This document shows, in pieces, positions 1 through 15,118 of a DNA stretch of 64,000 bases. This DNA is from Asanoa ferruginea (GTDB lineage: Bacteria; Actinomycetota; Actinomycetes; Mycobacteriales; Micromonosporaceae). The DNA lies in contig NZ_QUMQ01000001.1 of NCBI RefSeq assembly GCF_003387075.1, forward strand, positions 3,534,001 to 3,598,000. The letters run 5' to 3'. The notes under the pieces are model-generated. The model saw nothing but the letters and a program-made list of their open reading frames with translations, was not told the DNA's origin and did no database searches. Within the stretch, counting starts at the first letter, position 1; every line of letters starts with the position of its first letter. The position numbers were made by a program, and so were the translations under genes.

Positions 1-235
1 CACGCCGCCGGCCGTGCCGCCAACGGTTCCGCCGGCCGTGCCGACCGCCGGCGCGCCGCCCTCGATCGCTCCGGTGGCCGCGTCGCCGGCACCACCGGTC
101 GACCGGGCATCCGCGGTCACGCCGAGCGGTCCACTGGGGATGGCGCGCAATCTGCTGATCATCATCCTGTTGGTCGGGCTCGCCGGCGGGATCATCGGCC
201 CGATCCTCAAGCGGATCGGGGCCGGCCGGTCATGA
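1..235 (+). CDS. C-terminal fragment of a Pro/Ala-rich membrane-anchored protein
   Basis: The reading frame is already open at the left edge, so only the C-terminus is visible. It has a low-complexity Pro/Ala/Val linker of about 45 residues, one hydrophobic segment (LLIIILLVGLAGGIIG) and a short basic tail (KRIGAGRS), so it looks like a surface protein ending in a single C-terminal membrane anchor. No LPxTG motif precedes the hydrophobic segment. A GTG at position 14 is in frame but there is no reason to think it is the true start. The stop overlaps an ATG (ATGA) at 232, but that start would give the next protein an unconserved N-terminal extension and I do not use it. The gene probably belongs to the same surface/transport cluster; its function cannot be read from this fragment. 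Confidence 0.6.
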   Translation, partial: TPPAVPPTVPPAVPTAGAPPSIAPVAASPAPPVDRASAVTPSGPLGMARNLLIIILLVGLAGGIIGPILKRIGAGRS

Positions 236-260
236 ACGTCCACAGTGGCGTCAACGAACC

Positions 261-282
261 GGTCGGTCGGTGTTCATCCGGC
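261..282 (+). promoter_or_regulatory. Weak PHO-box-like direct repeat
   Basis: Two adjacent 11-bp units, GGTCGGTCGGT and GTTCATCCGGC, lie in the 188-bp gap before the PstS-like gene. The second unit fits the Streptomyces PhoP half-site (G[GT]TCAYYYR[GC]G) at ten of eleven positions; the first matches poorly. It would place the binding-protein gene under phosphate control, as for the better site before pit at 7955. The assignment is tentative because only one unit is convincing. Confidence 0.3.
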
Positions 283-423
283 CTACGTGTTGGCGGAACT
301 CAGGCGCGCGAAACGTTCGTCCGCGCGCGGTATCGGCGCCGGTCCGGCGCTCGCGACGATGACTGGGCCTCGTCCGTCAGCAGGGCGGCAACGAGCACCA
401 TGCCCCGCAGAAAGGGAGCACAC

Positions 424-1602
424 ATGAAGGTCAAGAACGTCGGCCGGGTGGGCGTCGTCCTCCTGGCCGCCGCGCTTGGGGCCGCCGCCATGGCCGGACC
501 GGCCATGGCGGACCCGAACCCGTCGACCGATTTCCGGACCCTCACGGGTGTCGGCTCGGACACCACGCAGGACGTGATGAACGGGTTCGGCAGCCTCGTC
601 ACCGACGGTGCCAACGCCAAGGTCATCGCGTCGTGGGACGCGCGCGGCAGCGTGCAGATCAAGACCAAGGCCGCCAACTGCACCTTCAACCGTCCCGACG
701 GTTCGGGTGCGGGTCGCCAGGCGCTGCGCGCCTCGCAGGGCGAGAACCTGGGCGGCACCAACGGCGGCGCCGGCTTCTTCCAGGGCGCCAACGTGGCCAA
801 CTGCGTCGACTTCGCGCGTTCCTCGTCCTACGGCGGCCCGACGCCGCCGACGACCGCGGGCAACTACACCTACATCCCGTTCGGTGTGGACGCCGTGGCG
901 CTGGCCCGCAACGCCAACGGCGACATCCCGGCGAACATCTCGTTCGCCCAGGTGCAGCGGGTCTACAAGTGCTTCGACACCGCGATCGCCGGCAACCCGG
1001 TGACCCCGCGGATGATCCAGGCCGCCTCTGGCACCTGGCAGTTCTGGGCCGGCAAGATGGGCATCACCGAAGCCGAGATCAACCTCGGTGACTACAGCTG
1101 CCTGGCCCGCGACACCGACAGCAACCCGGCCACGCCGGCAGCGCCCAACTTCGAGCGGGTGCAGGAGCACGACGGCACCGTTCTCAACGGCAACCTGAAC
1201 CAGATCGTGCCGTTCTCGGCCGGTCAGTTCATCGCGCAGGGCAACACGGCGGCCATCCAGGCCGCGACCGGCGTGACGGTGACCGACCGCCGCGGCCAGG
1301 CCGCGCTGACCGGCATGCGGCTTCCGGGTCAGGCGATCCAGCAGCCCGTTGTCGGCGGCATCCTCAACACTGCCTTCCCGCTCCGCCGCGACGTCTACAA
1401 CGTCGTCCCGACCGCCGACCTGGCGGACGCGGCGATCGTCAACGCCTTCGTCGGCGCCAACTCGAAGGTCTGCACCACGACCGTCAACGTCGGCGGCACC
1501 AACCGCAGCGTCATCGAGCTCTTCGGCTTCGGCAAGCGCACGAACGGCGTCGACCTGCTCAACGCCGCCTGCGGCGCGACCGACCTGAAGGCCAACGCCT
1601 AA
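424..1602 (+). CDS. PstS-like periplasmic binding protein, secreted without a lipobox
   Basis: A 392-residue protein with a Sec signal peptide ending near AMA-DPNP, followed by a type 2 periplasmic-binding fold of the PstS family. PstS-like loops are visible: GVGSDTT near the mature N-terminus, a FARSSS loop near residue 137, and YIPFGVDAVA near residue 155. The start is ATG 424, which has AAAGGGAG just upstream and begins directly with the signal peptide; an in-frame ATG at 232 would add 64 unconserved residues. Most PstS proteins are lipoproteins, but no Cys follows this signal peptide, so it is free or held by a partner protein. Several Cys residues could form disulfides. The downstream PstB-like ATPase supports a role in oxyanion import; phosphate is the likeliest ligand but is not proven. 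Confidence 0.8.
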   Translation: MKVKNVGRVGVVLLAAALGAAAMAGPAMADPNPSTDFRTLTGVGSDTTQDVMNGFGSLVTDGANAKVIASWDARGSVQIKTKAANCTFNRPDGSGAGRQALRASQGENLGGTNGGAGFFQGANVANCVDFARSSSYGGPTPPTTAGNYTYIPFGVDAVALARNANGDIPANISFAQVQRVYKCFDTAIAGNPVTPRMIQAASGTWQFWAGKMGITEAEINLGDYSCLARDTDSNPATPAAPNFERVQEHDGTVLNGNLNQIVPFSAGQFIAQGNTAAIQAATGVTVTDRRGQAALTGMRLPGQAIQQPVVGGILNTAFPLRRDVYNVVPTADLADAAIVNAFVGANSKVCTTTVNVGGTNRSVIELFGFGKRTNGVDLLNAACGATDLKANA

Positions 1603-1674
1603 CCAGCCCCACCACGCGGTCCGGGCGGCCCAGCAGGCCGCCCGGACCCGTCGAACTCGAAGGAGTCGCCAGCG

Positions 1675-3318
1675 ATGTCCCGGCGTCGTCGTCTGTCCCG
1701 GCTGATCGCGCGCGCCTGCGCGCTCGCGGCCGCCGTCATGAGCATCGCGGGCGGCACCCTGGTGATCGCGTCCAACGCCGCCAGCGCCGCCTCGCTCGGC
1801 GCTGTCACCCTGTCGCAGCAGGACGGCCTGGTCGACCAGACGCCCATGTTCGCGTCCGCGGTCAGCGCCCGGCCCTGCCCGACCGGCTTCGGTGAGAACG
1901 CCGCGCTGCGCGTCGGCCCGCCCGCCGGCCCCTACAGCAACCTGGCGGTCTCGCTCGGCGGCGGCGACTTCGACCTCGCGCCCGTCACGGTCAACGCCAA
2001 CCGGTCGTTCCAGACGGCCCTCGGCGGCGTCAAGCCGGCCGACGGCCAGTGGGTCGTGATCATCGAGTGCTACAGCCTCACCGAGGGGCGGCATCCTGAC
2101 GAGTTCCGGACGCCGATCATCGTCTGCGGCAACGCCTGGGCGGTCGGCAACACCTGTCCGCAGCCGAAGGAAGAGACCGAGACGGCGTTGACCGTCTCGC
2201 CGACCTGGTCGGTGGTGGCCACCGAAGAGGTGACGCTGACCGCGTCGGTGACTCCGGCGGCCGCGACCGGCGAGGTCGAGTTCTTCTACGACTCGCCCGA
2301 CGACGACAAGGGGCCGCAGTCTCTCGGCAAGGGTCCGGTGACCGGTGGCCAGGCGGTGTTGAAGACGACGACCATCCCGGCCAACCTCAAGGACAAGTTC
2401 CACGACCTCACCGCCGTGTTCACCGCGGCATCGACGGCGCCCTACCACGGTTCGACGTCGGCCAAGGTGCGGCTCAACGTGCGCAATCCCGGCGAGACGA
2501 TTCCCTCCGAGGTCACCGTCGCGGTCAGCCCCGCCGGCACGGCCAACCACGGTGCCGAGGTGACGATCACCGCCATGGTCTCGCCGCCCGAGGCGACCGG
2601 CAAGGTGGCCTTGCGCTATCGGCGCGGCACCTCGACCACGGTCGTCACGATCGCCGAAGTCGACGTGGTCGACCACGTGGCGAGCACGAAGACCACCGAC
2701 CTGCCCGGCGGCACGCTCAGCATCGACGCGGCCTTCACCTCGGCCACCTTCAGCGGGTCGGCGTCGACCCCGGTCACCTACGTGATCGTCGGCGGCGAGG
2801 ACGAGCCGGACAAGCGGCCGACCACGACCACGTTGACGGCGACGCCCGACGGCGAGCAGCCGCAGAACACGTCGATCATCCTGACCGCCACGGTGGCACC
2901 GACCGGCACGGCCGGCACGGTCACCTTCCGCGACGGCGCCAAGGTCCTCGGCACGCCGAAGCCGCTCAACCCCACCAGTTCGGCGGCCATCTCGGTCAAC
3001 GACCTGGCCATCGGCACCCACCGGATCACCGCCGAGTTCGTGCCGACCGACTCGACCACGTTCGCGGGATCGACGTCGGCGGCCAAGACCATCACCATCA
3101 CCGACGGGGACGACGACCCGGGAAGCGACGACCCCGGCTCGGACGACCCGGGCTCCGGTGACGGCGGAAGCCTGCCGCGCACCGGTGCGCCGATCGTCGG
3201 CGTGGCCATGGTCGGCGGGGGACTGGTCGGGATCGGCCTGCTGGCCGTGACCGCGGGCCGCCGGCGTCGGCTGCTTCCGTCGGTGCCGTGGTTGGACCGT
3301 GCTGATGACGGCGCCTGA
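1675..3318 (+). CDS. LPRTG-anchored Ig-repeat surface protein
   Basis: A 547-residue exported protein preceded by GAAGGAG. It has a signal peptide to about residue 38, then a domain of about 110 residues that is strongly repeated in the product at 5239 (shared stretches include GENAALRVG and ECYSLTEGRHPDEFRT). Three Ig-like/Big_3-type repeats follow (roughly residues 165-265, 275-365, 375-475), then a DDPGS-rich linker and a sorting signal LPRTG at residues 500-504 with a hydrophobic segment and an Arg-rich tail. It is therefore predicted to be covalently attached to the wall by a sortase. It overlaps the following sortase-like gene, implying co-translation. Role inferred: wall-anchored scaffold of the complex encoded here. 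Confidence 0.85.
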   Translation: MSRRRRLSRLIARACALAAAVMSIAGGTLVIASNAASAASLGAVTLSQQDGLVDQTPMFASAVSARPCPTGFGENAALRVGPPAGPYSNLAVSLGGGDFDLAPVTVNANRSFQTALGGVKPADGQWVVIIECYSLTEGRHPDEFRTPIIVCGNAWAVGNTCPQPKEETETALTVSPTWSVVATEEVTLTASVTPAAATGEVEFFYDSPDDDKGPQSLGKGPVTGGQAVLKTTTIPANLKDKFHDLTAVFTAASTAPYHGSTSAKVRLNVRNPGETIPSEVTVAVSPAGTANHGAEVTITAMVSPPEATGKVALRYRRGTSTTVVTIAEVDVVDHVASTKTTDLPGGTLSIDAAFTSATFSGSASTPVTYVIVGGEDEPDKRPTTTTLTATPDGEQPQNTSIILTATVAPTGTAGTVTFRDGAKVLGTPKPLNPTSSAAISVNDLAIGTHRITAEFVPTDSTTFAGSTSAAKTITITDGDDDPGSDDPGSDDPGSGDGGSLPRTGAPIVGVAMVGGGLVGIGLLAVTAGRRRRLLPSVPWLDRADDGA

Positions 3319-4258
3319 CCTCGCGCCGCCATCGGCGCCGCCGGCCCAACCAGGGCCGGCGGCGCCGCCGCGCCCACCCAACCTGTCGCTTCAGGTCGTC
3401 GGCACCGCGCTGACCATCGTCGCGGTGCTCGCCGTCGGCCTGATCGCGCACCTGACCGCGGTCTCCTGGCTGCAATACCAGCGCGACCAGCAGACCCTGT
3501 TCGCCGACTTCCGGGCCGAGCTCAAGCTCGGCACCGCGCCGGTCGGGCAATACCGGGTGAGCTACGACGCCAACGGGGCCCCGCTGCCCGAGCAACTCGT
3601 CGCACCGGGCAGCCCGGTCGCCGTGCTGCGGATCCCGTCGATCGGCATGAACTCGGTCGTGGTGGTCGAGGGCACCAGCGGTGACGTGCTCCGGGCTGGC
3701 CCCGGCCACCGGCGCGACACCGTCCTACCCGGACAGCGCGGCACCAGCGTCCTGATGGGACGCCAATCCGCTTACGGTGCGCCGTTCCGCGACCTTTCGA
3801 CCAAGCTGATTCCGGGTGACCCGGTCTACGCGACTACCGGGCAGGGCGAGTCCGAATACCGGGTGGCCGGCCTGCGCCGGCCCGGAGAGCCGGAACCGAA
3901 GCCGCTCGTGCCGGGCGCCGGCCGGCTGACCCTGATCACCGCGCACGGCCGGGCGTTCGACCCGGACGGCGTGGTCTATGTCGACGCCGACCTGATCTCG
4001 CCGGCCAAGCCGACGCCGGCCCGGCGCTTCGGCGAGTCGTCGCTGCCCGCCGCGGAACGGGTGATGGGCGTCGACTCCACCGGCTGGATCTGGGCCATGT
4101 TGTGGGGCCAGGGCCTGCTTCTCGGCGCGGTGGCGGTCACCTGGCTGCGCACCCGGATGAGCGGTTGGCACGCCTGGATCGTCGGCGTCCCGGTGCTCGC
4201 CTTCCTCGGCCTCGCCGTCGCCGACCAGGCCGCGCGCCTGTTGCCCAACCTGCTGTAG
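3305..4258 (+). CDS. Sortase-fold protein lacking catalytic His, Cys and Arg (pseudo-sortase)
   Basis: A 317-residue membrane protein: Pro-rich cytoplasmic start, one N-terminal membrane segment (about 32-52), a sortase-like beta-barrel (about 105-230) and two C-terminal membrane segments. The fold is clear from [16 protein letters not shown], the [12 protein letters not shown] loop and LTLIT. However, where active sortases have GH(R) this has GR (R153); where they have the TLxTC Cys it has Ala (LTLITAHG, A213); and no Arg stands in the following strand. Transpeptidase activity is therefore unlikely. The gene begins inside the end of the LPRTG-protein gene. ATG 3305 is chosen over GTG 3299. 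It may bind sorting signals or act as a structural partner of the transporter. Confidence 0.8.
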
Positions 4259-4281
4259 CCAGCTCGAGAGAAGAGAAGCAC

Positions 4282-5091
4282 GTGACGACGACGCAGACGC
4301 GGATCGCACCGCCCCTCGGTGGAACGCTGGACGCCCGGGCGATTTCGGCCTGGTTCGGCGACCACAAGGTGCTCGACCGGGTGTCGCTGGAAATGCCGGC
4401 CGGCAAGGTGACCGCGCTGATCGGGCCGTCCGGCTGCGGCAAGTCGACGTTCCTGCGGATCCTCAACCGGATGCACGAGTTGGTGCCAAGCGCGTCGCTG
4501 GCCGGCGAGGTGCTGCTCGACGACACCGACCTGTATTCGCCGGAGCGCCGGGTCACCGACGTGCGCCGCGAGGTCGGCATGGTGTTCCAGAAACCCAACC
4601 CGTTCCCGGCGATGTCCATTTTCGACAATGTGCTGGCGGGCCTGAAACTGACCGGCACCAGGGCCTCGCGCTCGACCCGCGACGACATCGTCGAGGAGAC
4701 GCTGACCAAGGCCGGGCTCTGGAAAGAGGTCCGCGACCGGCTCCGCTCGCCCGGCGGCGCGCTGTCCGGCGGACAGCAGCAACGGCTCTGCATCGCGCGC
4801 TCGCTGGCCGTACGCCCGCGGGTGTTGCTGATGGACGAACCGTGCTCAGCGCTGGACCCGACGTCGACGCGGCGGATCGAGGAGACCATCGCGGAGCTGG
4901 CGGGCGAGGTGACGATCGTGATCGTCACGCACAACATGCAGCAGGCGGCCCGGGTTTCCGACCTGTGCGCGTTCTTCCTGGCCGCGCACGGCACCCCCGG
5001 CGTGATCGTCGAACACGGCCCGACCGAGGCCATGTTCGGCTCTCCGCGCGACGAACGGACGAACGACTACGTCAATGGTCGGTTCGGCTGA
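4282..5091 (+). CDS. pstB: PstB-type phosphate ABC transporter ATPase
   Basis: A 269-residue ATPase with Walker [10 protein letters not shown] (about 48-56), the PstB-typical Q-loop [13 protein letters not shown], signature LSGGQQQR and Walker [12 protein letters not shown], and the switch His in [11 protein letters not shown] 4282 is used because AGAGAAGAG sits just upstream and the protein then has normal PstB length. It would power import of the oxyanion captured by the PstS-like protein. No PstC or PstA permease follows it, so these would have to lie left of the window or elsewhere. Its position after a surface protein and a pseudo-sortase is not the usual pstSCAB order. Confidence 0.85.
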
Positions 5092-5238
5092 GCGGAACGT
5101 ATGAGCCCCCAACACCAACTGTTCTCCTCGCGCACGTCCGGCGGAGAGATTGGCCTGATGACGGGGACACGGCCGGTGTAAAGCCTGATCGCGGCCGGAT
5201 CACCGGACCCGGCTTGAACTTCTGAGAGGAAGTGATCC

Positions 5239-6435
5239 ATGAGCAAGCGTGTGTTCGCTCGCGCGGCCGCGCTGCTGGGTGCGGCGTCGATCGCGGCCGG
5301 CGTCCTGGCTGGCATCGCCAGCCCGGCGCAGGCAGCGTCGCTCGGCGAGGTCACCCTGTCGCAGCAGAGCGGCAGTGTGAACGACACCCCGATCTTCGCG
5401 AGTGCCACCAGTCCCGCCTGCCCCACCGGGTATGGCGAGAACGCGGCACTTCGGGTCGGTCGCCCCGGCGGTCCCTACAACAACCTGGCTGTCGCGCTCG
5501 GCGGCGGCGGGTTCGACGAGGCGCCGGTCACGGTCAACTCGAACCGGTCCTTCACCACCGCGCTGGGCGGCGTCGCGCCGGCCGCCGGTGAGTGGTGGGT
5601 CATCATCGAGTGCTACTCCCTCACCGAGGGTCGGCACCCCGACGAGTTCCGCACCTCGATCGTCGTGACCGGCGACCAGTGGCGGATCCCGGTGGCGGAA
5701 GAGACCGGCACCGCGCTGTCGATCGCTCCTACCGGTGGCATCGAGCGGGGCCAGACGGCGACCTTCACGGCCAACGTCTCCCCGGCCACCGCCGCCGGCA
5801 CCGTCGAGTTCAAGCGGGGCACCTCCGTCATCGGCTCCGCGACGGTGACCAACGGTGTCGCCACCTTCGCCACGACCGCGCTGCCGGTCGGCACCTACCA
5901 GTTCACCGCTGCCTTCACGCCGGCCGACGCCACCGCGTTCAAGCCGTCCGTGTCGACCGCGTCGTCGTTCACCATCACGCCCGGCACCGCGCCTGGCCCG
6001 ACGGCTGACGTCGAGATCATCGCTCCGATCGACCCGGGTGCGTTCAGCCTGGCGGTCGCGGCGCCGACCACGTCCCTGACCGGCGGCACCGTCGGTGGCG
6101 TCGCCACCGGCACCCTGCCGCAGGCCACGGTCGTCGACCTGCGCGGCACCAACGTCGGCTGGTCGCTGACCGGCCAGCTCGAGGACTTCGCGCAGGGCAC
6201 CAACACCATCGCCAACAGCAACCTCGCCTGGACCCCGGCGGCCGCCAAGGTCTCCGGTTCCGGCGCGGTCACCGCGGGCGCGGCTGCCGACCTCGGCGAC
6301 ACCCGCACCCTCTGCTCGGCGGTTTCGGGCTCCAGCGCCGGCACGTTCACGTGCGATGCCGGCCTGAAGCTCAACATCCCGGACAGCGTCGCCCCGGGTG
6401 AGTACGCGGCGACCCTGACCCTGACGCTGGCCTGA
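5239..6435 (+). CDS. WxL-like domain surface protein, paralogous at its N-terminus to the LPRTG protein
   Basis: A 398-residue secreted protein with AGAGGAAG before the ATG. It has a signal peptide to about residue 33, the same N-terminal domain of about 110 residues found in the LPRTG protein at 1675, one Ig-like repeat (about 160-250) and a C-terminal domain (about 255-398) that resembles the WxL wall-binding domain: GWSLTGQL with W308 as the first W-x-L, a second conserved Trp in LAWTP, and an ending PGEYAATLTLTLA in which the second W-x-L has Leu for Trp. In Firmicutes WxL domains bind peptidoglycan non-covalently and work with DUF916 proteins, and a DUF916 gene follows here. No sorting signal is present. 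The WxL assignment is by motif only. Confidence 0.75.
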   Translation: MSKRVFARAAALLGAASIAAGVLAGIASPAQAASLGEVTLSQQSGSVNDTPIFASATSPACPTGYGENAALRVGRPGGPYNNLAVALGGGGFDEAPVTVNSNRSFTTALGGVAPAAGEWWVIIECYSLTEGRHPDEFRTSIVVTGDQWRIPVAEETGTALSIAPTGGIERGQTATFTANVSPATAAGTVEFKRGTSVIGSATVTNGVATFATTALPVGTYQFTAAFTPADATAFKPSVSTASSFTITPGTAPGPTADVEIIAPIDPGAFSLAVAAPTTSLTGGTVGGVATGTLPQATVVDLRGTNVGWSLTGQLEDFAQGTNTIANSNLAWTPAAAKVSGSGAVTAGAAADLGDTRTLCSAVSGSSAGTFTCDAGLKLNIPDSVAPGEYAATLTLTLA

Positions 6436-6451
6436 TCGGCCGGAGTCGTTT

Positions 6452-6484
6452 GGCGGAGGTGTCGCGCACAGCGACACCTCCGCC
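6452..6484 (+). terminator. Perfect 14-bp hairpin between the WxL-like and DUF916 genes
   Basis: GGCGGAGGTGTCGC (6452-6465) and its exact reverse complement (6471-6484) enclose a 5-nt loop. There is no T-tract, as is common for actinobacterial terminators. Since the genes on both sides run the same way and are functionally linked, it may be a partial terminator or an mRNA stabiliser rather than a full stop. Confidence 0.65.
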
Positions 6485-6519
6485 GTCCCGACGTTTCTCC
6501 ACCTCAACCGGAGCGGCAC

Positions 6520-7572
6520 ATGAACACCAGATCCGCCATCGGGCGCCGGCGTGCGGCCGTTTTCGTCGTTGTGGCGACGATGCTTCTCGCCACGGCACCC
6601 ACGCAGGTCTCGGCCGCCGCGCCGGCCGCACACCGCGACGACACACAGCGCTGGACGGTCGTGCCGTCGAGCCCGACGGGGCCCAGCGGGCGCAAGCAGT
6701 TCGACTACGAACTCAACGCCAAGGAAGCCATCACCGACTGGATCTCGGTGAGCAACCTCGGTGACAAGCCGCTGACCGTCGACCTCTACGCGACCGACGC
6801 GTTCACCGCGGCCGACGGCGGGTTCGCGCTGCTGCCCCGCGACCGCAAGCCCGACGGCGTCGGCTCATGGGTGAAGCTGCCGAAGGCGTCGACCACGCTG
6901 CCGGTCGGCAAGCGCTCCGACATGCCGTTCACCCTGAGCGTGCCGGCGGGCGCGGCGCCCGGTGACCACATCGGCGGCATCATCGCGTCGATCACCGAGG
7001 AGCAGGTCAACGAGAAGGGCCAGCGGGTCAACGTCGAACGCCGGGTCGCGGCGCGGATCTACCTGCGGGTCGCCGGCCCGCTCACGCCGCTCGCCGCGGT
7101 CACCGGGGTCGAGGTCGACTACGAGACGCCGATCGTGCCGTTGCCGGGCGGGAAGATGGCGGTCACCTACCGGGTCGCCAACCACGGCAATGTGCGCCTC
7201 TCCGGCACCGTGCGAGTCGGGGTCGACGGGCCGCTGGGCATCCGCCTGGCCGGCAGCGACACGATCAACGTCGCCGAGTTGCTGCCCGACTCGGAACTGC
7301 GGCTGCGCCAGGAGTTCTCGTCGGTCTTCCCGGCGGGCCGGCTCACCACCACGGTCGACTTCAACCCGTCGACCAACCGCGAGGCGCTGCCGTCGGTGTC
7401 CGGCACGGCCGGCACGACCGCCGTACCCTGGCTGATCCTCGCCCTGTTGTTGGCCGTTCTGGTGTTGGTCTGCTACCGGATCATGGTGTTGCGCGCCCGG
7501 CGCCGGCCCGCGCCGACGTTCCTCGACGAGCCCGGCACCGCGGCCGTGCCGGCCGCCCGGATGGCGCCGTGA
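6520..7572 (+). CDS. DUF916 (WxL-interacting) membrane-anchored protein
   Basis: A 350-residue protein with a signal peptide to about residue 35, a DUF916/WxIP-type domain (about 45-155; begins WTVVPSSP and includes a YELNAKEAITDWISVSNLGDK-type strand region and PGDHIGGIIASI), a second beta-rich region (about 170-290) matching the host-binding half of such proteins, one membrane segment (WLILALLLAVLVLVCY, about 304-320) and a basic cytoplasmic tail. In Firmicutes, WxL-interacting proteins of this type bridge peptidoglycan and WxL proteins. A GGAG-containing site lies before ATG 6520. The stop overlaps the next gene's GTG, so the two are likely co-translated. Confidence 0.8.
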   Translation: MNTRSAIGRRRAAVFVVVATMLLATAPTQVSAAAPAAHRDDTQRWTVVPSSPTGPSGRKQFDYELNAKEAITDWISVSNLGDKPLTVDLYATDAFTAADGGFALLPRDRKPDGVGSWVKLPKASTTLPVGKRSDMPFTLSVPAGAAPGDHIGGIIASITEEQVNEKGQRVNVERRVAARIYLRVAGPLTPLAAVTGVEVDYETPIVPLPGGKMAVTYRVANHGNVRLSGTVRVGVDGPLGIRLAGSDTINVAELLPDSELRLRQEFSSVFPAGRLTTTVDFNPSTNREALPSVSGTAGTTAVPWLILALLLAVLVLVCYRIMVLRARRRPAPTFLDEPGTAAVPAARMAP

Positions 7573-7940
7573 CCCGGCGGCGGGCGGCGCTGCTGGCCGC
7601 GGGTGCGGCGCTCGCCGCGGCGGTCGCGGTGCCCGCGGCGGCCGCGGCGGCGGAACCAACCCCCGGGCCCGACCGCGTCACCGTCGACCTGAGGGTGCGG
7701 ATCCTGCCCGACCCGAGCGCTACACCGACGCCGTCGCCGACCTCACCGCAGCCACACCCGACCACCACCCGGCCGCACCCGCCGGCCGGCGGCGGCGGCG
7801 GAACGACGCTGCCCCGCACCGGCGCCGCCATCGGGATGTTCGTGCTGGTCGGCGCCGCGCTCGTCGGCGGCGGCATCGTGCTGCGGCTCATGGCGCGCCG
7901 CCGGGTCGAGGCGGAGCGCTGGCTGGCCCGCTCGCGCTGA
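7569..7940 (+). CDS. Small LPRTG-anchored wall protein
   Basis: A 123-residue protein starting at GTG 7569 inside the upstream stop (GTGA). It consists of a signal peptide (about 1-28), a short region EPTPGPDRVTVDLRVRILPD, a Pro/Thr/His-rich stalk, and a sorting signal LPRTG at residues 81-85 followed by a hydrophobic segment and a basic tail. Firmicute WxL operons also encode a small LPxTG protein beside the WxL and DUF916 genes, so the three genes 5239-7940 reproduce that set. Predicted to be linked to peptidoglycan by a housekeeping sortase encoded outside the window, since the local sortase homologue appears inactive. Confidence 0.75.
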   Translation: MTRRRAALLAAGAALAAAVAVPAAAAAAEPTPGPDRVTVDLRVRILPDPSATPTPSPTSPQPHPTTTRPHPPAGGGGGTTLPRTGAAIGMFVLVGAALVGGGIVLRLMARRRVEAERWLARSR

Positions 7941-7954
7941 TCCCGTTCGGGGAT

Positions 7955-7976
7955 GTTCACCCAACGGTCATCTTCC
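7955..7976 (+). promoter_or_regulatory. PHO-box-like PhoP direct repeat upstream of pit
   Basis: Two contiguous 11-bp units, GTTCACCCAAC and GGTCATCTTCC, match the Streptomyces PhoP half-site G[GT]TCAYYYR[GC]G at 9 of 11 positions each, with the GKTCAYY core intact in both. The site ends 40 bp before the pit start codon. It predicts control of pit by phosphate limitation; the direction (activation or repression) cannot be told from sequence. Confidence 0.6.
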
Positions 7977-8016
7977 GACGCGATGGGCGCGAGCGACACT
8001 GGGGACATCCGATGGC

Positions 8017-9150
8017 ATGGACACCCTTGTCATCGTCGTGATCATCACGGCGCTCGCGTTCGACTTCACCAATGGGTTTCACGACACGGCCAACGCGATG
8101 GCCACCTCGATCGCCACCAAGGCGCTGCCGCCGCGGGTGGCGGTCGGCATCTCCGCGGTGCTCAACCTGGTCGGCGCGTTCCTGTCGGTCGAGGTGGCCA
8201 AGACCATCTCCAACGGGCTCGTCGACGACAGCAAGGTCACCCCGGCCGTCATCTTCGGCGGGCTGGTCGGCGCCATCCTGTGGAACCTGGTCACCTGGCT
8301 GCTCGGCCTGCCGTCGAGTTCGTCGCACGCGCTGTTCGGCGGCCTGATCGGGGCGACCTGGATCGCGGCGGGCGGCGACGCGGTCCACTTCGCCACCGTG
8401 CTGACCAAGGTGATCATTCCGGCGCTGGCGTCACCGCTGATCGCCGGGCTGGTGGCCGCGACCGGCACGTTCCTGGTCTACCTGATCACCAGGCGGGCGG
8501 CGCAACGCAACGTCCGCAGCGGGTTCCGGCACGGTCAGGTGATCTCCGCGTCGCTGGTCTCCCTGGCGCACGGTTCCAACGACGCGCAGAAGACCATGGG
8601 CGTGATCACCCTGGTGCTGATCACCGCCGGCAGCCTCGACTCCGGTAGCGGCCCGCCGCTCTGGGTGATCTTCTCCTCCGGGCTGGCCATCGCCCTGGGC
8701 ACCTATCTGGGTGGCTGGCGGATCATCCGCACCGTTGGCCACAAGCTGACCAGGATCGAGCCGCAGCAGGGCTTCGCGGCCGAGACCAGTTCGGCCACCG
8801 TCATCCTGGCCTCGTCACACCTGGGCTACCCGCTCTCGACCACTCAGGTCACGTCCGGTGCGGTGATCGGCTCCGGCATCGGCAAGCGGCTCTCCGAGGT
8901 CAAATGGGGCATCGCCGGCCGGATCGCCATCGCCTGGCTGCTCACCCTGCCCGCGGCCGCCGTCGTCGGCGCGCTCGCCGGCCGCCTCGCGATCAGCGGC
9001 ACCGCCGGGGTGCTGATCGTTGCCGTCGCGCTGGTCGGGCTGTCCGCGCTGTTCTACGTGCTGTCGCGGCGCGACAAGGTCGACCGGCACAACGTCAACG
9101 ACGAAACGCCCGCGCCGACCACCGCACCCCAGCCGACCTTCGCCAACTGA
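8017..9150 (+). CDS. pit: Low-affinity inorganic phosphate transporter, PiT family
   Basis: A 377-residue polytopic membrane protein with the two inverted PiT signatures: FTNGFHDTANAMA near the N-terminus and LAHGSNDAQKTMG near residue 190. About ten hydrophobic segments are visible and a hydrophilic tail ends the protein. It imports phosphate (often as a metal-phosphate complex) with protons. The next gene, for a small membrane protein, starts 20 bp downstream behind GAGAGGAG and probably shares its mRNA. A PHO-box-like repeat precedes the gene, and the Pst-like surface cluster lies directly upstream. Confidence 0.93.
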   Translation: MDTLVIVVIITALAFDFTNGFHDTANAMATSIATKALPPRVAVGISAVLNLVGAFLSVEVAKTISNGLVDDSKVTPAVIFGGLVGAILWNLVTWLLGLPSSSSHALFGGLIGATWIAAGGDAVHFATVLTKVIIPALASPLIAGLVAATGTFLVYLITRRAAQRNVRSGFRHGQVISASLVSLAHGSNDAQKTMGVITLVLITAGSLDSGSGPPLWVIFSSGLAIALGTYLGGWRIIRTVGHKLTRIEPQQGFAAETSSATVILASSHLGYPLSTTQVTSGAVIGSGIGKRLSEVKWGIAGRIAIAWLLTLPAAAVVGALAGRLAISGTAGVLIVAVALVGLSALFYVLSRRDKVDRHNVNDETPAPTTAPQPTFAN

Positions 9151-9170
9151 CACCGAGAGGAGATCGACCG

Positions 9171-9422
9171 ATGAACATCGACATCGCCTGGGGCGACCTG
9201 GGCCTGGTGACCGCGGTCGGGCTGGTCCTGGGCGCGGGCGTGACCGTGCTCTATGCGATCGGGATCCGGGTGCTCACCCCGGCGCCGGACCCGGCGCTGG
9301 GTGGTGACCCGCACGAGACCGAGTCGCACGTGCGGCCCACGCCGCTGCGGTTGGCCGCCACGATCCTCTGTTTCGCGGTCTGTGCCGCCGCGGTCGCTTA
9401 CGGTATCTTCACCCTCCTTTAG
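9171..9422 (+). CDS. Small membrane protein downstream of pit
   Basis: An 83-residue protein with two predicted membrane segments (about 9-32 and 62-82) joined by a hydrophilic loop that contains PDPALGGDPHETESH. GAGAGGAG lies at ideal distance from ATG 9171. It follows pit by 20 bp, so it may assist or regulate the transporter. I do not recognise a named family. Confidence 0.75.
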   Translation: MNIDIAWGDLGLVTAVGLVLGAGVTVLYAIGIRVLTPAPDPALGGDPHETESHVRPTPLRLAATILCFAVCAAAVAYGIFTLL

Positions 9423-9559
9423 GGCACGTCCAGGTAACGGCCGAGAGGTGAACGCCACACGGAATCCGGTGCAACGGTGGCGAACCGGTGGGTGGTGCCG
9501 TGGGCCGTGTCCCGATACCGTGAAGGCGCCGAAACAGCGGCCGACCCGGAGGTATCCCC

Positions 9560-9886
9560 GTGGGTACGGTGCTCGTCACGGAGCGCGACAACTTAGGCGT
9601 CGTCGTCATCGAAGTGACCGGCGACGTCGATCCTGCCGCCGCAGCGGAGCTGCGGTCGGCGCTGGTGCGCACCCTCCGCCCCACCGGCCCGACCAGGGTC
9701 GTCATCGACCTGCGGGCCGCGGGCAACATCGTTCCCGAGGGCATCGGCGCCGTGGTCGCCAGCGTCGATGTCGCCACCGACAACGGCATATCGATGACCG
9801 TTCGCTCGGCCGCGCCCGAAGTGGCCGAAGAGCTGCTCGTCGCCGGCCTCCCGCGCGGCTGCGTCACCCCCAGCGCCCGGGTCTGA
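9560..9886 (+). CDS. STAS-domain protein, atypical at the phosphorylation site
   Basis: A 108-residue single STAS domain of the anti-sigma factor antagonist type (SpoIIAA fold): an N-terminal VVIEVTGDVDPAAAAELRSAL segment, then VVIDLRAAGNIVPEGIGAVVAS. GGAGG is 7 nt before GTG 9560. In classical antagonists a DSSG Ser in this loop is phosphorylated by the anti-sigma kinase; here the loop reads NIVPEGIG, with no Ser or Thr at that place. It may be a non-switchable relative or have another partner. No anti-sigma kinase gene lies beside it. Confidence 0.7.
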   Translation: MGTVLVTERDNLGVVVIEVTGDVDPAAAAELRSALVRTLRPTGPTRVVIDLRAAGNIVPEGIGAVVASVDVATDNGISMTVRSAAPEVAEELLVAGLPRGCVTPSARV

Positions 9887-9924: not shown

Positions 9925-11403
9925 ATGCGGACGGTGGTGGAGCGCGAGCGCAAGTTCGAGAGCCCCGACGGTTTCCGGGTGCCCGATCTGGTCGGCGACG
10001 GCATCGCCGCGATCGACGAGCCGGCGCTGCTCACCCTCGACGCCACCTACTACGACACGCCCGAGCTGCGGCTGACCCGGGGCGCCCTCGCGCTGCGCCG
10101 CCGCACCGGTGGCACCGATGCCGGCTGGCACCTCAAGGTCGGCGCCGCCGGCGGCGCCCGCACCGAGCACCAGCGCGCCCTCACCGCCGGCACCACCCCG
10201 CCGCGCGACCTGATGCGGCTGGTCCGGGCGGCGGCACGCGGCGGGCCGGTCGAGCCGGTCGCCCGGATCGAGACCCGCCGCCGGGAGTGGCGGCTGCACG
10301 GCTCCGACGGCACGGTGCTGGCCACCCTCGCCGACGACGCGGTGGTCGGGCACGACCTGGTCGACGGTCGCCGGATCGCGTGGCACGAGATCGAGGTCGA
10401 GTTGGTCGACGGCGACGACGACCTGCTCGACAGCGTCGAGCGGCGGCTGCGCGCGGCCGGCGCCCGCACCGGCTCGCCGGCGAAGATCCATCGGGTGCTC
10501 GGCGAGCGGTTGCGATCGGTCACCGCGATCGACGCCGGCCCGGCGACGCCGGTGTTCGCCTACGCCGCCGCCACCCGTGACGACCTGGTGGCGCACGACC
10601 CGGCGGCGCGCGACGGCGACGTCGACGGCGTGCACGACATGCGGGTTGCCGTCCGGCGGCTGCGCGGCACGTTCCGCACTTTCCGCGGGCTCTGGGAGCC
10701 CGACCGCGTCGACGCCGTGCGGGCCGAGCTCAAATGGCTCGGCGAGCAGCTCGGCGGGGTCCGCGACGCGCAGGTGATGGGTCCGCGGCTGGCGAAGGCG
10801 GTCGGCCGGCAACCCGACGAACTGGTGCTGGGGCCAGTGGCGGCCGACCTCCGTGGTCATTTCGCCGCGGCCGAGGCGGCCGCGCTCGCCCGGTTGCGGC
10901 GGGCATTGGGCTCCGGCCGCTACGTCCAGCTCCTGTCCACACTGGACGATCTGGTCGAGGCGGCACCGGCGATCGAGGCGACGCCGCGCTGGGTCAACCG
11001 CCGGATCCACAAGGCGGTGCGGCGTGCCGACGGTCTGCTCGACACCGCGCTCGAACGGCAGGCCGAGGCCGGCGCCAGCGACGACGACCCGGCCCTGCAC
11101 GAGGCGCGCAAGGCCTACAAGCGGGCGCGTTACGCGGTCGAGGTGCGCAAGCTCGACGGTGCCAAGAAGGCCAAGCGGCTGGTCCACGGGCTCAAGGGCC
11201 TCCAGGACCTGCTCGGCGACCACCAGGACTCGGTCGTCACCCGGCAGGTGCTGCGCGACCTGGCGGTGCGGACCAAGCCCAACACGTTCACCTACGGCCT
11301 GCTCTACGGCGAGCAGGTCGGGCACGGTCGCGCGCTGGTGCGCAAGCTGCCGGCCGCACAGACCCGCGCCCGCCGCCGCAAACTGCGGCACTGGCTGCGC
11401 TAG
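9925..11403 (+). CDS. CYTH-CHAD domain protein
   Basis: A 492-residue protein with an N-terminal CYTH domain (about 1-200) carrying the ExExK signature as ERERK and the YYDTPELRL strand, and a C-terminal CHAD domain (about 215-490) with HDMRVAVRRLRGTFRTF and a second half HEARKAYKRARYAVE, both rich in His/Arg/Lys. CYTH domains bind triphosphates in a tunnel; CHAD helices bind inorganic polyphosphate. The protein therefore probably handles or senses polyphosphate, which fits the phosphate genes upstream. ATG 9925 is chosen; GTG 9919 is two codons earlier in the same frame. Confidence 0.88.
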   Translation: MRTVVERERKFESPDGFRVPDLVGDGIAAIDEPALLTLDATYYDTPELRLTRGALALRRRTGGTDAGWHLKVGAAGGARTEHQRALTAGTTPPRDLMRLVRAAARGGPVEPVARIETRRREWRLHGSDGTVLATLADDAVVGHDLVDGRRIAWHEIEVELVDGDDDLLDSVERRLRAAGARTGSPAKIHRVLGERLRSVTAIDAGPATPVFAYAAATRDDLVAHDPAARDGDVDGVHDMRVAVRRLRGTFRTFRGLWEPDRVDAVRAELKWLGEQLGGVRDAQVMGPRLAKAVGRQPDELVLGPVAADLRGHFAAAEAAALARLRRALGSGRYVQLLSTLDDLVEAAPAIEATPRWVNRRIHKAVRRADGLLDTALERQAEAGASDDDPALHEARKAYKRARYAVEVRKLDGAKKAKRLVHGLKGLQDLLGDHQDSVVTRQVLRDLAVRTKPNTFTYGLLYGEQVGHGRALVRKLPAAQTRARRRKLRHWLR

Positions 11404-12458: not shown

Positions 12459-12480
12459 CTTGAGATAAGGGGTTATGCCG

Positions 12481-13284
12481 GTGAGAGCACGTTGGATAAG
12501 TGTCGCCCTGGCCGCCGTCACCGCCGTCGCCCTCACCGCGTGTGGCAGCGACACCGCTGACACCGCGACGACCGCACCAACCGGCGGCAGCAGCAGCGCG
12601 GCCGGCGCGAGCGGCCCGATCACGGTCTTCGCCGCGGCCTCGCTCACCGGGGCGTTCACCCAGATCGGCAAGGACTTCGAGGCGGCCAACCCGGGCACCA
12701 CGGTGACGTTCAGCTTCGCCGGCAGTTCGGCGCTGGCCACCCAGATCAACCAGGGCGCGCCGGCCGACGTGTTCGCCTCGGCCGCCCCGGCAAACATGAA
12801 GACCGTCACCGACGCCGGCAACGCCGACGGCACGCCGCAAAACTTCGTGAAGAACCAACTCGTCATCGCCGTGCCGAAGGGCAACCCGAAAAACATCGCC
12901 ACGCTCGCCGACCTCGCCAAGCCCGGCGTGAAGGTCGCGCTCTGCGCACCGCAGGTGCCGTGCGGCGCCGCCGCGCAGAAGGCGCTCCAGTCGGCCAACG
13001 TGACGGTCACCCCGGTCACCCAGGAGCAAGACGTCAAGGCCGCGCTGTCGAAGGTGACGCTGGGCGAGGTCGACGCCGCGCTGGTCTACCGCACCGATGC
13101 CAAGGCCGCGGCCAGTGACGTCGAGGGGATCGAGTTCCCCGAGTCGGCCAACGCCATCAACGAATATCCGATCGTGGTGCTGAAGAACGGCCCCAACAAG
13201 GCCGGCGGCCAGGCGTTCGTCACCTACGTGCTGTCGGCGCCGGCGCAGAAGGTGCTCACCGACGCGGGCTTCCAGACGCCGTGA
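12481..13284 (+). CDS. modA: Molybdate-binding lipoprotein ModA
   Basis: A 267-residue lipoprotein (269 if ATG 12475 is used). It has a signal peptide with lipobox LTAC, a Ser/Thr/Gly-rich tether, then a ModA fold starting ITVFAAASLTGAFTQIG, with the ligand loop FAGSSALATQI and the segment GAPADVFASAAPANM. These are the usual Ser-containing molybdate/tungstate contacts. GTG 12481 is preferred because AAGGGG sits 8 nt before it but only 2 nt before ATG 12475. It is the first gene of modABC, linked to modB by a GTGA overlap. Confidence 0.92.
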   Translation: MRARWISVALAAVTAVALTACGSDTADTATTAPTGGSSSAAGASGPITVFAAASLTGAFTQIGKDFEAANPGTTVTFSFAGSSALATQINQGAPADVFASAAPANMKTVTDAGNADGTPQNFVKNQLVIAVPKGNPKNIATLADLAKPGVKVALCAPQVPCGAAAQKALQSANVTVTPVTQEQDVKAALSKVTLGEVDAALVYRTDAKAAASDVEGIEFPESANAINEYPIVVLKNGPNKAGGQAFVTYVLSAPAQKVLTDAGFQTP

Positions 13285-14062
13285 GATCACGCCGGGCACC
13301 GCTGGTTCTGCTCGTGCCAGCGCTGCTCGGGCTGCTGTTCCTGGTTCTTCCGCTGGTCGGGCTCCTCTACCGCGCGCCGTGGACGACGTTGCCCGAGCGG
13401 CTCACCGAGCCAGGCATCCTCAACGCGCTGAAGCTGTCGCTGCTGACCGCCACCCTCGCCACGGCCGGCTGCCTGGTCCTCGGCGTGCCGCTGGCGTGGC
13501 TGCTGGCCCGGGTGAAGTTCCCGGGCCGGCGGGTGGTGCGGGCGCTGGTGACGGTGCCGTTGGTGCTGCCACCGGTGGTCGGCGGCGTGGCCCTGCTGCT
13601 GGTCTTCGGCCGGCGCGGGCTGATCGGCGAGTGGCTCGACAGCGCCTTCGGCATCACGCTGCCGTTCACCACGGCCGGCGTCGTGCTCGCCGAGGCGTTC
13701 GTCGCGATGCCGTTCCTGATCATCGCGGTGGAGGGCGCGCTGCGCGGCGCTGACGCCCGCTACGAGGAGGCCGCCGCCACCCTGGGCGCCGGGCGGTGGA
13801 CCACGTTCACCCACGTCACGCTGCCGCTGGTGGCACCGGGTGTGGCGGCCGGCGCGGTGCTCTGCTGGGCCCGGGCACTGGGCGAGTTCGGGGCGACCAT
13901 CACGTTCGCCGGAAACTTCCCGGGCAAGACGCAGACCATGCCGCTCGCGGTCTACCTGGCGTTGGAGACCGACCTGCAAGCGGCGATCGTGCTCAGCCTG
14001 CTCCTGCTCTTCGTCTCGGTGGTCGTGCTGGCCAGCCTGCGCGACAAGTGGATCGCGAGCCC

Positions 14063-14066
<4 letters not shown>
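13281..14066 (+). CDS. modB: Molybdate ABC transporter permease ModB
   Basis: A 261-residue inner-membrane permease with five to six membrane segments and the EAA loop EEAAATLGAGRWTTFTHVTLP that contacts ModC. LGEFGATITFAGNFPGKTQT near residue 195 is typical of ModB. It starts at GTG 13281 within the modA stop and ends within the modC start (ATGA), so all three genes are translationally coupled. Confidence 0.93.

Positions 14067-15118
<1,052 letters not shown>

Follow-up and report, generated by a model that had tools for sequence, protein, structure and literature searches.

Several PstS paralogues may coexist in one organism, as exemplified by PstS1-3 of Mycobacterium tuberculosis, and class E sortases (SrtE) are specific for LAxTG sorting signals. 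The described Csc clusters carry small and large WxL proteins, and more than 91% of 938 WxL sequences belong to Firmicutes, according to a WxL survey (PMC9772566). Here we analyze a gene cluster that reaches into a 64,000 nt stretch of DNA from Asanoa ferruginea (positions 3,534,001–3,598,000 of the 9.07-Mb, single-contig genome; hereafter, the window), in which the genes of a Pst ATP-binding cassette (ABC) importer are interspersed with those of wall proteins and of a catalytically altered sortase (the pseudo-sortase). The cluster is real and conserved, and it encodes what is apparently an undescribed Pst importer variant, in which a wall-facing part is combined with two dead paralogues, one of PstS and one of a sortase.

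The full gene order is pstC, pstA, the gene for a PstS with a C-terminal membrane helix, those for two PstS-like proteins of 865 and 392 amino acids (aa), a wall protein, the cysteine-less sortase, pstB, and the genes for a WxL-like protein, a WxLIP (DUF916) protein and a small LPRTG protein (Table 1). The cluster starts at pstC, about 6.3 kb upstream of the window, which truncates its front end: pstC, pstA and the PstS gene are wholly outside, as is most of the 865-aa gene, with its 3′ end at position 235, and the genes inside form a tight run on the + strand (424–7940). Positions further upstream are given on L006, a stretch reaching upstream of the window (window position equals L006 position minus 16000). 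Overlaps of a few bases join pstC/pstA, pstA/pstS, pstS/865, wall protein/pseudo-sortase and WxLIP/small LPRTG; the remaining intergenic gaps are of around 23 to 189 bp, the widest within the core being that of 189 bp. A terminator scan of window positions 1–9600 retrieved one site, which is intragenic, with 3.3 expected from shuffled sequences.

The predicted importer gene set is complete. PstC and PstA score over their NCBIfam equivalog cut-offs, and PstB and the cluster PstS fall just short of theirs (Table 1). The ATPase motifs are intact, with Walker A in all 79 PstB relatives and LSGGQ, DEP and VTHN in 78 of them each. Among 36 relatives, PstS shows no variation in G-x-G-S, G-S, S84 or R173-x-D175-G-S-G, but the position aligned with the key Asp is mostly Glu (33/36); by eye, this protein has a signal peptide without lipobox and a C-terminal membrane helix. 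Because the pump genes are intact, we infer that the system works as an importer. The host genome carries two additional pstB genes that pass the family cut-off, and the cluster is thus a third, diverged and accessory Pst system.

Conservation was evaluated in 296 genomes of the phylum, 150 genomes of the family and 80 loci from a genome-contig collection, which were the best 80 of 331 matches to one peptide pattern. Carriers among these best 80 include Asanoa, Micromonospora, Plantactinospora, Actinoplanes, Dactylosporangium, Streptomyces, Jiangella, Amycolatopsis, Cryobacterium, Microbacterium, Motilibacter, a Propionibacteriaceae bacterium and others, and pstB was found near the pseudo-sortase gene in 79 of the 80. 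Gene contents were tallied for the 69 loci with at least 9 kb of upstream flank, the other 11, among them L142, being dropped for a flank under 9 kb. The PstS and 865-aa labels in this tally were assigned with single-sequence phmmer, since the hidden Markov model (HMM) profiles of the two families each caught the other; labels for the WxL domain, for the N-terminal domain of the wall proteins (N-domain) and part of those for WxLIP came from the HMM profiles. Both the 865-aa protein and pstB occurred in all 69 loci, PstS in 67, the 392-aa protein in 65, PstA in 62 and PstC in 44, the lower counts of the two permeases most likely resulting from cut-off by the 10-kb flank. An N-domain was present in 52 loci, an LPxTG-type motif in 46, WxLIP in 36, a WxL domain in 33, and the phosphate transporter gene pit in 2. 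In 20-kb regions from 16 of the 39 other carrier genomes of the family, pstC, pstA, pstS, the 865-aa and 392-aa genes, the pseudo-sortase gene and pstB were all found in 16/16, accompanied by WxLIP in 15/16, and pstB was beside the pseudo-sortase gene in the 29 other family loci examined.

Searches with the pseudo-sortase at E below 1e-23 identified nine phylum genomes besides that of the host; eight of these matches sit in a pst cluster, and the remaining one, from G274, lies outside such a cluster and retains GH and TC. Neighborhoods were examined for all nine and for three weaker matches, pseudo-sortases being told apart from other sortases by their catalytic residues and neighborhood. The 865-aa protein (E up to 3.1e-23) and the pseudo-sortase (E up to 8.0e-51) occur in the same nine of the 296 genomes, host included; seven of the nine 865-aa matches are long, one (G016) is in two pieces and one (G001) is ambiguous. 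As a control, PstC, PstA, PstS and the 865-aa protein were found at 1e-5 in none of 20 neighborhoods of other sortases, six of them from the host genome, and an ordinary ABC ATPase matched PstB at 7e-16 to 7e-13 in seven (L182–L185, L194, L197, and L201). The co-occurrence of the cluster genes is far beyond chance. Within L058, a region spanning that of L182, this PstB-related ATPase gene is divergent from and adjacent to the sortase gene.

The preliminary description of this DNA had recognized, in one run of genes, a PstS-like protein, two LPRTG proteins, a pseudo-sortase, PstB, a WxL-like and a DUF916 protein, followed by a PHO-box-like site and pit, and proposed that their homologs be sought together in other genomes, a failure to find them so counting as a refutation. 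The run, all on the + strand, is as described, and that refutation clearly does not apply, as homologs are found together in the family regions, in the tallied loci and, with one ambiguous match, in the same nine phylum genomes. Its suggestion of a receptor or importer now leans towards importer, since the DNA upstream of the window supplies pstC, pstA and a PstS whose binding site is mostly retained. The Pst components, the pseudo-sortase and the anchored surface proteins hold together as one conserved unit, to which WxL (33/69) and WxLIP (36/69) are frequent additions, not core parts.

Of the two PstS-like proteins, that of 865 aa is matched by no Pfam or NCBIfam model; it is built from an extra N-terminal domain, a PstS fold in the C-terminal half, a proline-rich linker and a C-terminal membrane helix. 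In profile–profile comparisons its family aligned to PstS with a probability of 98.1 (E 6.7e-14; residues ~349–789), and did not match the 392-aa family (probability 1.6). An AlphaFold2 model of the orthologue in locus L088, with a mean predicted local distance difference test (pLDDT) of 83.6 and a predicted template modeling score (pTM) of 0.83, had a structural match to PstS-3 of M. tuberculosis (E 1.5e-9; TM, normalized by target length, 0.73). Residues in the columns aligned to the phosphate loops are varied or different, there is no R-x-D-G-S-G in the consensus, and position 380 is Asp or Glu in 46/47 sequences. We designate it a pseudo-PstS because of this predicted PstS fold without conserved phosphate loops. 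The 392-aa protein appears from its sequence to be secreted, with no anchor seen, and has a weak match to PF12849 (E 8.9e-4), below the cut-off. A PDB search with the single sequence gave no match, and one with the family profile retrieved phosphate-binding-type chains (best E 1.1e-7); the family also aligns to that of PstS (probability 88.3, E 2.9e-6). Four anion-loop motifs are altered yet conserved, and S45-D46-T47, Arg90, S94, Arg132, S134 and S202-G203 are invariant in the 44 aligned members, including that from the window.

The pseudo-sortase contains a sortase domain, over the PF04203 cut-off, and its nearest class is that of the class E sortases, with an NF033747 score of 65.2 bits that does not reach the cut-off (160); the class E fold, groove motifs and GPGH motif are retained. 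Its structural model (pLDDT 92.3, pTM 0.84) matches sortases with a best E of 1.1e-9, and shows one long N-terminal and two long C-terminal helices. The catalytic His is replaced by Arg153 in all 44 aligned members, window included, and the catalytic Cys by Ala213 in 41, as in the window, and by Gly in three; a second alignment, of 26 members, has Arg at the His place in 26/26 and, at the Cys place, Ala in 25 and Val in one. The active-site Arg is replaced too, and the His, Cys and Arg that an active sortase requires are all lacking. In the three most distant members (L013, L014, and L015) the His place is occupied by Lys, Arg and Arg and the Cys place by Thr, Ser and Ser, respectively, and L015 keeps an Arg near the place of the active-site Arg. 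These fixed replacements have the look of selection towards a new function rather than of decay. Nine other sortases of the host genome keep GH and TC, and anchoring of the LPRTG proteins could therefore be their job. The best named matches to the window pseudo-sortase were from three Asanoa species (81–82% identity). In a phylogenetic tree, the 82 pseudo-sortase sequences, some entered twice under two loci, formed one group, from which all 31 other sortase-family sequences were excluded; after re-rooting, the node of this group had a support of 0.145 and a node inside it one of 0.996, which makes a single origin likely without proving it. We also noted a separate sortase-like group in one family (f45; L017, L018, and L021), in which the His place holds Phe or Tyr and the Cys place Thr; the one neighborhood of this group examined (L057) was without pst genes.

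The first wall protein comprises a cluster-specific N-domain, for which no Pfam match was found, three immunoglobulin (Ig)-like domains of the Big_3_5 type, an LPRTG motif and a membrane helix. The WxL-like protein has an N-domain, one Ig-like domain and a C-terminal WxL domain, which is below the PF13731 cut-off and contains one W-x-L motif (WSL), the position of the second being TLTL. Across 44 such domains, one W-x-[LV] motif occurs in 39, two in one and none in four, so the two motifs of WxL domains are generally not found. The WxLIP protein scores over the PF06030 cut-off and ends in a membrane helix; its matches up to E 0.1 included no second WxLIP domain. The small LPRTG protein, which we take to be CscD-like by position and size, had single-sequence matches in 3/16 family regions, all three from the same genus. 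The gene just upstream of the pseudo-sortase gene, chosen by a simple rule that may be wrong for single loci, encodes a sorting-type motif plus a membrane helix in 48 of the 80 loci, a helix only in 12 and a motif without helix in two, with no gene found in six; in Streptomyces this neighbor often has LASTG or MASTG ahead of a helix and a basic tail. Additionally, a third N-domain protein with a C-terminal membrane helix is encoded upstream of pstC (L006 8361–9060; window −7639 to −6940), and a similar gene precedes pstC in 10/16 family regions. A second pair of WxL-like and WxLIP-like genes (L006 981–2589; window −15019 to −13411) lies further upstream, with other genes occupying the approximately 7 kb between it and pstC.

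On balance, we favor, with moderate confidence, that the cluster encodes a distinct Pst ABC importer variant, widespread among actinobacteria and forming a wall-linked assembly in which the two dead paralogues serve as scaffolds. PstC, PstA and PstB would constitute the ATP-driven pump, to which PstS, held by its C-terminal membrane helix, would act as a docking binding protein, passing on phosphate or a close oxyanion; the secreted 392-aa protein would be a second, free binding protein scavenging in the wall. The membrane-anchored pseudo-PstS and pseudo-sortase, formerly functional proteins, would keep the wall proteins (N-domain proteins with LPxTG or LAxTG and, often, WxL and WxLIP) beside the pump. 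A more specific and rather doubtful proposal is that the pseudo-sortase is a non-catalytic receptor for sorting signals, whose groove, with its invariant Arg, clamps the uncleaved LPxTG/LAxTG tail of its neighbor beside the ABC importer, and that together with the pseudo-PstS it builds a membrane-to-wall anion conduit, a new kind of importer. This clamp is suggested because the gene just upstream so often ends in a sorting-type motif and a helix.

Several observations weigh against the wall-linked importer. The 80 loci lean towards close relatives, and the distribution is patchy, with the pseudo-sortase found at 1e-20 in 40/150 family genomes (including the host and three of the same genus) and two same-genus genomes without the cluster. 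One of the 80 loci, L142, has 10 kb downstream of the pseudo-sortase gene and no pstB was found in the DNA examined; some clusters, such as that of L110, are without WxL, WxLIP or any sorting motif; and, by one count, the upstream neighbor of the pseudo-sortase has neither motif nor membrane helix in 12/80. The coincidence in nine genomes depends on thresholds set after inspection: the 865-aa profile at 1e-10 matches 14/296 genomes, of which only the nine at 3.1e-23 or better were counted, and the five others (4.1e-18 to 1.8e-11) span the PstS-like part only. Among the counted matches, that of G001 covers only positions 573–793 of 819, in an open reading frame also matching the cluster PstS, and may be a plain PstS relative. 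Also, little separates the E-value of the weakest pseudo-sortase counted (8.0e-51) from that of the best-matching other sortase, from G274 (7.7e-48). The 20 control neighborhoods were not checked residue by residue for catalytic sites, and five of the six from the host genome had no pseudo-sortase match at 1e-5. The key Asp position of PstS is Glu in 33/36 relatives of the alignment and Asp in 3/36, so the ligand may be other than phosphate. Finally, PHO boxes are weakly enriched before pstC, and the host pstC upstream region reaches 10 of 14 positions, a score matched or passed by 26.7% of shuffles.

We consider it unlikely that the cluster consists of co-regulated neighbors without a complex, i.e., a divergent Pst importer and a separate wall module expressed under the same condition, with the pseudo-sortase serving the wall proteins only. 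Such an arrangement would agree with WxL and WxLIP coming and going, and occupying two different places in the cluster, with the second WxL-like/WxLIP-like pair of the host genome, with the lack of a pstB found near the pseudo-sortase of L142, and with similar modules standing alone in Firmicutes (PMC9772566). However, the pseudo-sortase is tied to pst, with pstB beside it in 29/29 family and 79/80 other loci, coincides with the 865-aa protein in 9/296 genomes, and is kept even at L110 and similar loci, in which searches found neither an N-domain protein nor one with a sorting motif. That the sortase is active with an unusual site is scarcely credible: the class E fold and groove motifs are kept, but Cys, His and Arg are all replaced, and none of the 44 aligned members has His or Cys at those positions.

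Other alternatives concern the pump itself. The same architecture might instead serve to import another anion (arsenate-tolerant phosphate, phosphite or a phosphate ester), a reading that overlaps with the favored wall-linked importer and differs in ligand only. The key Asp of PstS forms a low-barrier bond underlying the selectivity for phosphate over arsenate, according to a review (PMC7866108), and its replacement by Glu in most relatives speaks for a change of ligand, as do the Arg90, Arg132 and Ser134 of the 392-aa protein (44/44). Against this, the remaining PstS ligand residues are unchanged and Asp is still present in 3/36, and we deem a different ligand quite improbable. Very unlikely, in turn, is a sensor or force-transmitting device, in which a Pst-like pump that no longer imports would use binding and ATP hydrolysis to alter, or report on, the wall complex. 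The presence of two degenerate parts, of three binding-type proteins serving a single pump and of two other pstB genes over the cut-off would fit such a device, but the anion site of PstS is mostly retained, PstB has intact motifs and both permeases are over their equivalog cut-offs.

Table 1. Features of the cluster and of the adjacent pit gene; positions refer to the window unless given on L006.
Feature	Position	Strand	Evidence
pstC, PstC permease	L006 9741–10793		TIGR02138, 245.4 bits (equivalog cut-off 196.45)
pstA, PstA permease	L006 10790 (likely start) to 12049		TIGR00974, 197.8 bits (equivalog cut-off 193.45)
PstS with C-terminal membrane helix	L006 12046–13641		TIGR00975, 201.6 bits (equivalog cut-off 205)
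865-aa PstS-like protein, 3′ end	1–235 (gene start −2362; L006 13638–16235)	+	Open reading frame; profile–profile comparison and structural model of an orthologue
Secreted 392-aa PstS-like binding protein (putative)	424–1602	+	PF12849, 19.5 bits (below cut-off); family profile against PDB
Wall protein, LPRTG	1675–3318	+	PF16640, 104.5 bits, three stretches; translation
Pseudo-sortase, class-E-like	3305–4258	+	PF04203, 48.7 bits (cut-off 26.6)
PstB ATPase	4282–5091	+	TIGR00972, 341.6 bits (equivalog cut-off 343.2); motor motifs intact
WxL-like wall protein	5239–6435	+	PF16640, 56.6 bits; PF13731, 20.2 bits (below cut-off of 25)
WxLIP (DUF916) protein	6520–7572	+	PF06030, 38.2 bits (cut-off 27.3)
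Small LPRTG wall-anchored protein	7569–7940	+	PF00746, 15.6 bits (below cut-off of 20); LPRTG in translation
Two 11-nt PHO-box-like units before pit	7955–7976	+	12 of 14 against GTTCACC twice, 11-nt spacing
Pit-type phosphate transporter	8017–9150	+	PF01384, 314.9 bits

The unit used to score PHO boxes follows PMC6754071 and PMC7244524. The site preceding pit matches 12 of 14 positions within the 86 bp scanned, a score of at least 12 being reached in 0.2% of shuffles and in 0.9% of control stretches, which are of up to 370 bp and thus longer than the region before pit. Upstream of pstC, two-unit sites with at least 11 of 14 were found in 5/29 regions, vs. 4.0% of shuffles and 3.6% of control stretches, and sites with at least 12 in 3/29, vs. 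0.2 and 0.9%, respectively. The PHO-box-like site of the preliminary description is present before pit; general phosphate control through PHO boxes is not claimed, since the enrichment upstream of pstC is weak. With pit in 2/69 loci, neither pit nor its PHO-box-like site belongs to the unit in which they had been included; they are local neighbors. In 14/34 regions, all from records titled Streptomyces (e.g., L118, L131, L135, and L143), GGAAGTT occurs ~59–113 bp before the start of the pstC match, followed immediately in 12 of those 14 by CTCGTTCA; GGAAGTT and CTCGTTCA are possibly a promoter element.

Just upstream of the cluster there is a gene for a phosphoesterase of the PHP/DUF3604 type (L006 7064–8275; window −8936 to −7725), with a twin-arginine-like start by eye. 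It was discarded as a cluster part and considered local, being present in three same-genus regions and in 0/13 other family regions. Downstream of pit, the window encodes a CYTH-CHAD protein (9925–11403); CHAD domains are said to bind polyphosphate, and the phosphate theme may extend as far as this gene. It is followed by a molybdate-type ABC transporter (12475–15118; binding protein, permease and ATPase with a TOBE domain), labeled by family resemblance.

If the wall-linked importer is confirmed, it would represent a route by which thick-walled actinobacteria link a nutrient pump to the outer wall, and sortase folds would gain a non-enzymatic role. It would also set apart a Pst gene family now filed by family models as ordinary phosphate transporters or left unnamed. 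Two questions become open to test, namely the binding partner of a conserved dead sortase and the selectivity of a PstS that has Glu for the key Asp. The preliminary description knew of no system combining these components, and full-text literature searches, which did not cover most subscription papers, gave no description of the cluster or of a Pst-tied pseudo-sortase among the papers listed. In word searches, "sortase" was absent from a review on phosphate transport in Streptomyces (PMC7866108), and "phosphate", "transporter" and "Actinobacteria" from the WxL survey (PMC9772566).

The cluster shares with the high-affinity phosphate importer PstSCAB the components PstC, PstA, PstB and a PstS with the R-x-D-G-S-G loop, but its PstS ends in a membrane helix, shows no lipobox on inspection by eye and carries Glu for Asp at the key site; moreover, it contains two more PstS-like proteins, one of them degenerate, and a pseudo-sortase and wall proteins are encoded between pstS and pstB. 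Second Pst systems also provide several PstS paralogues per organism, whereas here three kinds of PstS relatives occur inside one operon-like run. The fold, the GPGH motif and neighbor proteins with LAxTG or LPxTG signals are common to class E sortases and the pseudo-sortase, which differs in the loss of all three catalytic residues, in its two C-terminal helices and in being tied to a pst locus. Finally, as in the Csc/WxL clusters of Firmicutes, WxL-like, WxLIP and small LPxTG proteins adjoin; in contrast, the WxL domains here have mostly one W-x-[LV] motif (39/44), no second WxLIP domain was detected, and these genes lie beside a Pst importer.

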